DNA of 64,000 nt from Candidatus Methanohalarchaeum thermophilum (GTDB taxonomy: Archaea > Halobacteriota > Methanonatronarchaeia > Methanonatronarchaeales > Methanonatronarchaeaceae), in contig MSDW01000001.1 in assembly GCA_001914405.1 (NCBI GenBank), positions 682,001 through 746,000 on the forward strand. The letters run 5' to 3'. Positions within the stretch are counted from its first letter, which is position 1. The number at the start of each line of letters is the position of its first letter. The notes beneath the pieces were generated by a model. It was not told the origin of the DNA and did not search any database. It saw only the letters and a program-made list of their open reading frames with translations. Position numbers and translations under genes: made by a program. Below are positions 38,069-41,406 of this stretch, piece after piece.

Positions 38069-38380
38069 ATGGAAGAACTACAAAAACTAAATAAAAGGAT
38101 ATCTAATGATAAGAGTTTTCGGAGCTGGATGCTTAGGAGATTAGAAGGTTACATTGAATATAGGGTCAGAGAAAGAGGGATAGAGGTAAGATATATTGGC
38201 CAAAAGTGTACGAATCAGCGATGTTCAAGGTGGGGGACAACGCTAAAACAAAATCAAAAAAACCAGTATTTTGAATGTCAAGACTGTGGCTACGAAGTTG
38301 ATAGTAATTATAATGCTGCAAAAAATATTGGTATGGAGGTTATTTTTAGTGGGCAAATGTCCCGGTCAAGGGATGGGTAA
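38069..38380 (+). pseudogene. tnpB: TnpB C-terminal fragment with zinc finger
   Basis: A 103-codon frame with the complete C-terminal signature of IS605-type OrfB: CTNQRCSRWGTTLKQNQKNQ, then CQDCGYEVDSNYNAAKNIGM. The finger pattern is CxxxxC...CxxC with one Cys changed (SRWG in place of the usual SxCG). The final catalytic Asp region reads DSNYNAAKN, in place of the usual A-D-x-N-A, so the RuvC Asp is lost. The N-terminal two-thirds are missing. It is a different lineage from the TnpB at the window start, which lacks the finger. Confidence 0.8.
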
Positions 38381-39934: not shown

Positions 39935-39956
39935 CTTTAAGTTATTTGGATTAGTG

Positions 39957-40410
39957 AAGTGACCCCTACCTAAATCAAGGGATTTTGGAGGGGGCTTCCC
40001 TGTGACCTTATCCTCGAAAGAGGAGTTTGTTTTCCACCGAACTTATCTCATACATTCGGTCAACAAGGGAACTATTGCTTTGAGGAAGAATTGGATTAGG
40101 ACACAAAGCCCATATATTAGCTACACAATGGCTCCTCTTATTCACTCTGGTTGCTCCACACCTACCACTACACCCTACTCCCGAAGTTTCGGGCTTACCC
40201 ATCTATCTACTACTTACCTAATACACCTATTCGATGTAGAGTCCGAGGCTTTAGCCATTACCTCAAGGCATGGGATTGCTTTTTGGTAAGGCAGACTCCC
40301 AACCAACTGCCAGTTACTCTTAATTAGTCTTAAAAACACTTAAAACATCTGTAGTTGATTCATCACACTACCTAAATTAAAAATTTAGGAAGGTGTCTTC
40401 TCAACTATTT
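39957..40410 (-). mobile_element. Complete non-coding IS605-like element, copy F
   Basis: About 455 bp in inverted orientation. The left end (near 40410) has GTTGAGAAGACACCTTCCTA and a hairpin with arms CCTAAAT and ATTTAGG (40371-40389). The right end (near 39960) has a hairpin with arms AAATC and GATTT inside CCCTACC and GGAGGG, followed by GGTCACTTCAC. The interior shares GTAACTGGCAGTTGGTTGG with copy D and has an internal perfect hairpin CCCGAAACTTCGGG (40177-40190). No protein frame is credible. It is the best-preserved member of the family in the window. Confidence 0.65.
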
Positions 40411-40479
40411 AGATAAATTATAATCTGACTTGATTTTAGGGATTTTGGTTGAGTAACGGTATTGATGGAATGATAGTTA

Positions 40480-41061
40480 TTGATCAAGAGATTAAAGACT
40501 TCTTTTGTTTTTCTATTGGTTATATCATCGGTTGGTTCAATATCCGGTTGCTTGGCCGAGAACGATGGGGGAAATAACTCTGTTCTTGATTCTGGCCTTG
40601 ATCGAGATACCAGTTCGAGTAATATAGTTTCAGTGATTGAGGTGGTAGATGGTGATACAATAAAAATTTATTATAACAATAACTCGATCGATACTGTTAG
40701 ATTAATAGGAGTTGACACGCCTGAGGTTTACTCTGAGAATGCTTCATCTGAATTTGAAGAAATAAATAATGCCAGTTATTTAAAAGAATGGGGGTGTAGA
40801 GCAAGTAATTACACTAAATCTCTCTTAGAGAATGAAGAGATTACTTTGGGATTTGATTACTTGTCAGATAGAAGAGGATAGGACGGTAGGTTATTAGTAT
40901 ATGTTAAATTGGAAAATGGGTCAGCCTTAAACGAACTACTTATTGAAAATGGTTACGCCAGAGTCTACGAAGAGGAAGAATTTACAAAAAAAGCTAATTA
41001 CTTAGGACTAGGACAGAAAGCCAAAGCAAATTCTATTGGTCTCTGGATTTCTTCCTATTGA
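40480..41061 (+). pseudogene. Lipoprotein staphylococcal-type nuclease with one in-frame UAG
   Basis: 194 codons from TTG to TGA, interrupted only by TAG at 40879-40881 (codon 134). It has a lipoprotein signal (KTSFVFLLVISSVGSISGC, lipobox ISGC) and the thermonuclease fold: VVDGDTIKI, DTVRLIGVDTPEV (catalytic Arg and Glu), then DRRG-UAG-DGRLLVYV, and NELLIENGYARVY to SIGLWISSY. The second catalytic Arg (R87 in the S. aureus enzyme) lies three residues after the UAG, so termination there would abolish activity. UAG corresponds to Lys84 of that enzyme, a surface position. A broken lamin-tail domain follows at 41108, so decay is a real alternative to UAG decoding. Confidence 0.75.
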
Positions 41062-41107
41062 ACAAATAAAATTAAAGACATGTTTTCTATTGTCGATTTA
41101 CAAATAA

Positions 41108-41406
41108 GATGTGCTAGGTAACGACTATGAAGATTTGAATGGTGGATGGATAGAGTAAAGAATTCAATGGATAGTATTATCTCTTTAAGTGGCTTTAAAC
41201 TATGTGGTAATTTGGATCACGGTTATCTGTTCTCGGATATGTAATTGGGGTTAACTGAGGTCATAAAAGTTTACTCTGGTCGTGGGGAAAGTAACTATAG
41301 TAGTCTTTTTTGGGGTTCAGAAACAGCTATTTGGGATAACAGAGGAGATACTGCTTATTTATACAAAGAAGGAGACCTATTAATCGATTTCTATAAATCG
41401 AATTAA
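41108..41406 (+). pseudogene. Lamin-tail domain remnant of the nuclease
   Basis: Reading NDYEDLNGGWIE in one frame, then after a shift near 41155 KNSMDSIISLSGFKLCGNLD, a TAA at 41240, and EVIKVYSGRGESNYSSLFWG with a closing WDNRGDTAYLYKEGD, gives the complete consensus of a lamin tail domain. In haloarchaea and methanogens these domains often follow a secreted thermonuclease on one polypeptide. Here it is separated by stops and frameshifts. Confidence 0.75.

Follow-up and report, generated by a model that had tools for sequence, protein, structure and literature searches.

Does the nuclease gene found in a 64,000-nucleotide stretch of Candidatus Methanohalarchaeum thermophilum DNA (hereafter the window) give a functional enzyme by decoding of its single in-frame UAG as pyrrolysine (Pyl), or has the gene recently been broken? 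The original prediction, made from the sequence alone, left both options standing. In our view the second is clearly favoured, with a probability of roughly 0.75: the nuclease is probably a recently inactivated copy in which UAG is a nonsense lesion, the paralogue being intact. This preference arises because UAG is used as a stop in this genome, because a conserved Tyr beside the TAG has been lost, and because the lesions further downstream are not UAG codons; decoding is the less supported of the two options. The features concerned are as follows (window positions).

39953–40420, no strand assigned: repeat of about 470 bp, dispersed in the genome and conserved at its ends, directly upstream of the nuclease
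40480–41061, + strand: lipoprotein-type staphylococcal nuclease (SNase) frame, EcnA-like, 193 codons with one internal TAG, a TTG start and a TGA end
40879–40881, + strand: in-frame TAG, at a variable column that holds Y, R, K, G, S, T, Q, V or M in homologues
40882–40884, + strand: GAC (Asp), in place of the near-invariant Tyr85-equivalent (Tyr in 34 and Phe in 2 of 36 homologues)
40888–40890, + strand: AGG, the catalytic Arg87-equivalent, aligned to KYGR of Staphylococcus aureus nuclease and Arg in 36/36 homologues
41062–41406, + strand: decayed lamin-tail domain, with frameshifts near 41086 and 41157 and TAA codons at 41105 and 41242

The nuclease frame begins with an N-terminal lipoprotein-type signal containing a lipobox-like SISGC, its TTG start being preceded by TAG-TTA, and it runs to the TGA at 41059–41061 with the TAG as its sole internal stop, so that the earlier description of a frame otherwise open to the SNase C-terminus is borne out. 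In profile searches the read-through protein matches PF00565 (SNase) with 65.9 bits (E 5.3e-18), which passes the cut-off of 21 provided that the TAG is read through; the part upstream of the TAG scores 19.9 bits, and the 59 codons behind it score 40.1 bits (E 5.3e-10). Since PF00565 matches both across and behind the TAG, these 59 codons are homologous sequence and not a chance opening, and their family-like character, as previously noted, is real. The acidic, Thr, Glu and Arg residues of active SNases are present in the motifs DGDT, VRLxGVDTPE and GR, and the catalytic Arg indeed lies just behind the UAG, three codons after it. The best NCBIfam match is NF047969 (EcnA), at 125.4 bits, below the curated equivalog cut-off of 180. 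No RNA structure was found 3' of the TAG, where the predicted fold is weaker than that of shuffled sequences (z +1.5). This result is neutral, because archaeal UAG decoding requires no special mRNA element and is thought to hinge on release-factor competition (PMC8211752); for the same reason, decoding is not to be dismissed on the codon context.

The refutation of decoding suggested earlier, a lack of pyl genes, does not apply: PylS, a tRNA-Pyl with CUA anticodon and PylBCD are all encoded in the genome. There are two pylS genes, both above the curated cut-off, one of which adjoins the tRNA-Pyl gene; a pylB-like gene adjoins each pylS, and the copy in region L025 is confirmed as PylB. PylB and PylS score above the curated cut-offs, and PylC and PylD fall slightly under theirs but are clear best matches. 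The suggested search for UAG in methylamine methyltransferase genes was positive: four genes (one MtbB, one MttB, two MtmB) contain a single TAG apiece, flanked by family sequence on both sides. The two pyl regions, L025 (C1 1–20000) and L042 (C1 1545001–1565000), both include a pylS, a pylB-like gene and an mtmB with a TAG; pylC, pylD, mtbB and mttB were seen in L025 alone. The presence of two pylS, two pylB and two mtmB genes agrees with the published description of strain HMET1, both PylRS/tRNA-Pyl pairs of which suppressed UAG in a reporter in Haloferax volcanii (PMC9071458).

Usage of UAG as a stop was surveyed in stretches amounting to 855 kb (about 40% of the genome), in which 610 genes were called by codon usage, so that the figures are approximate. 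Among the gene ends 406 are TAA, 135 TGA and 69 TAG (11%), and four or five of the TAG ends are those of the methyltransferases. The next TAA or TGA follows a TAG at a median of 12 codons, a TAA at 11 and a TGA at 9; as the distance after TAG equals that after the other stops, genes ending in TAG carry no safety stop. TAG is thus neither depleted at gene ends nor followed closely by a second stop. One housekeeping gene, that of NAD kinase, ends in TAG with a separate DHH-family gene directly behind it in the same frame. Outside the methyltransferases, frames interrupted by a single stop number 15 for TAA, 7 for TGA and about 5 for TAG in the same 855 kb, which is no excess of TAG. On account of the 11% TAG ends, the lack of a nearby second stop and the lack of surplus TAG-interrupted genes, UAG works here as an ordinary stop, the methylamine methyltransferase sites being the exception.

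The site itself was compared between the window copy and the 36 SNase homologues. None of them has a TAG at this column, including those of G022, a relative that encodes the Pyl machinery, and the window copy alone has Asp at the Tyr85-equivalent, where active SNases have Tyr or Phe before GR. The original prediction had read the letters UAG-D-G-R correctly, but the replacement of Tyr/Phe by Asp had gone unremarked. Tyr85 of S. aureus nuclease contacts a substrate phosphate, and its loss weighs against decoding, since Pyl at the UAG would restore no neighbouring Tyr. At the other columns conserved in at least 85% of the sequences, the window copy departs only once, by a conservative Val to Ile change. 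The same-genome paralogue in L018 reads TAT TAC where the window copy reads TAG GAC, so that, judging from this alignment, one tandem TT to GG change could have produced both odd codons. Both SNase copies of the pylS-bearing G022, the nearest sequences from another genome, read TAC TAT. The TAGs present in SNases of G063 and G009 were considered as parallels and rejected, being located at other codons in genomes that both lack pylS. A true orthologue of the window nuclease was not found in the same family or class; a scan of named genomes for SNase returned distant Bacillota SNases only, and a scan of viral contigs returned none. The comparison with close relatives proposed earlier, which looked for a sense codon and an intact lamin-tail gene, is therefore answered in part, by the intact paralogue and by the Tyr codons of the closest relatives, but not by a true orthologue.

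The paralogue (L018 922–2385) is 487 aa long, is free of stops and combines CARDB, SNase and lamin-tail domains. Frameshift-tolerant alignment to it was used to map the lesions of the lamin-tail remnant, which is separated from the SNase by the TGA at 41059 together with its own frameshifts and TAAs. The frameshifts reported previously are there, two in number, but that account was incomplete, as a TGA and two TAA codons add to them, giving five lesions none of which is a UAG. Measured against an intact homologue, the former gene carries a number of lesions that are not confined to UAG and so has the marks of a pseudogene, and Pyl could not rescue its lamin-tail part, because TGA, TAA and frameshifts lie outside its reach. 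The lesions are unevenly spread, one in the nuclease half versus five behind it (P about 0.035; 0.077 when the TGA is not counted). Differences from the paralogue at second codon positions amount to 17/84 before the TAG, 16/56 after it and 34/82 in the lamin-tail, so that the latter appears to have been free of constraint for longer, and the coding pattern of differences among codon positions persists behind the TAG. In a relative-rate test the window copy did not significantly exceed the paralogue; dN/dS was left out, dS being saturated.

As the simplest history we propose an ancestral lipoprotein nuclease of the cell surface, of the staphylococcal-nuclease/EcnA kind, that carried a lamin-tail domain at its C-terminus. 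Stops and frameshifts would have removed the lamin-tail first, so that the nuclease alone remained, similar to the SNase-only lipoproteins of G022 (191 and 194 aa), and a later TT to GG change (TATTAC to TAGGAC, taking the paralogue as reference) would have created the UAG and turned the Tyr85-equivalent into Asp. The breakage is likely to be recent, because the nuclease half has kept its other motifs. The main product is expected to be a 133-residue fragment without Arg87, given that UAG is an ordinary stop outside the methyltransferase sites, and a small share of read-through protein, carrying Pyl and then Asp, may arise when Pyl is available, as the cell makes Pyl-tRNA(CUA). Against inactivation, the near-intact SNase columns, the coding pattern and the smaller number of lesions are consistent with past or continuing function of the nuclease half.

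The alternative that survives best, although unlikely, is that UAG is routinely read as Pyl, giving a functional nuclease with Pyl at the Lys84-equivalent and a substrate pocket altered by Asp in place of Tyr85. The complete pyl set with its tRNA-Pyl(CUA), the four TAG-containing methyltransferase genes and the reporter suppression by both HMET1 pairs (PMC9071458) all speak for it, as do the intact frame, catalytic residues and coding pattern past the TAG and the many residues tolerated at this site. However, no homologue shares the TAG, even in the Pyl-encoding relative, the adjoining Tyr is gone, read-through of UAG outside the methyltransferases leaves no sign genome-wide, and the former gene is broken towards its 3' end by TAA, TGA and frameshifts. 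A restricted form, in which a secreted nuclease lipoprotein with Pyl beside the active-site Arg is made only when Pyl-tRNA is abundant, outside methylamine metabolism, seems to us improbable. Quite improbable, too, is an assembly or sequencing error at one place in a functional nuclease-only gene, which would explain why both odd codons trace to two adjacent bases (GG versus TT in the paralogue) in an otherwise clean SNase frame; yet the change is a substitution whereas indels are the commoner type of error, the surrounding frames of the window are long and clean, and independent lesions lie just downstream in the same gene. Finally, archaea with a genome-wide Pyl code have been described and the machinery is encoded here, but that UAG is a sense codon throughout this genome, the nuclease being one of many genes read through, is hardly credible, because TAG regularly ends genes (11%), housekeeping ones included, with no signature in the tails.

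The dispersed repeat upstream of the nuclease has 27 matches of at least 300 bp in the 855 kb sampled, and copies also adjoin the paralogue, one of them downstream of it (L018 2512–2980); the repeat is possibly a non-autonomous transposable element. At window positions 38069–38380 (+ strand), a 103-aa fragment with the Cas12f1/TnpB-like zinc-finger domain PF07282 is what probably remains of a TnpB gene.

The window contains a second gene with an in-frame TAG, an AlbA_2/Schlafen-domain frame (1536–2801, + strand) that ends in the TAG at 2121–2123 but is open for 225 codons past it (chance about 1e-9). Its continuation has no ATG, GTG or TTG before 2460 and no lesion was seen in it; it resembles the C-terminal part of a TIR-like protein of another archaeon, L111 (27%, E 1.5e-4), the homology beginning ahead of that first start codon. 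It could be argued that this gene has a stronger claim to read-through than the nuclease.

Were the nuclease UAG decoded, Pyl would occur in an enzyme unrelated to methylamine metabolism, and this in the sole organism for which two mutually orthogonal PylRS/tRNA-Pyl pairs have been reported. For the recently inactivated copy that we favour, the lesson is one of caution: in Pyl-decoding genomes, an in-frame UAG followed by a family-like continuation is insufficient evidence of decoding, and such calls need the conservation of the codon in homologues, the neighbouring residues and the stop usage to be taken into account.

Compared with known systems, the window nuclease has in common with EcnA (NF047969, the calcium-activated extracellular nuclease of methanogens) and with PF00565 proteins a signal-like N-terminus and the DGDT, VRLxGVDTPE and GRLL motifs, and differs from the EcnA/SNase family by its in-frame UAG and by Asp for Tyr85. 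With the paralogue it shares about 51% identity over the SNase domain and the order SNase to lamin-tail, whereas the paralogue has additional N-terminal CARDB repeats, no stops, and Tyr-Tyr at the site. MtmB, MtbB and MttB of the same genome resemble the nuclease in having a single in-frame TAG with homologous flanks. In contrast, their TAG is the established Pyl site of each family and no other lesion is seen in them, whereas the TAG of the nuclease occurs in one copy only, at a variable position, beside a conserved residue that has been lost.
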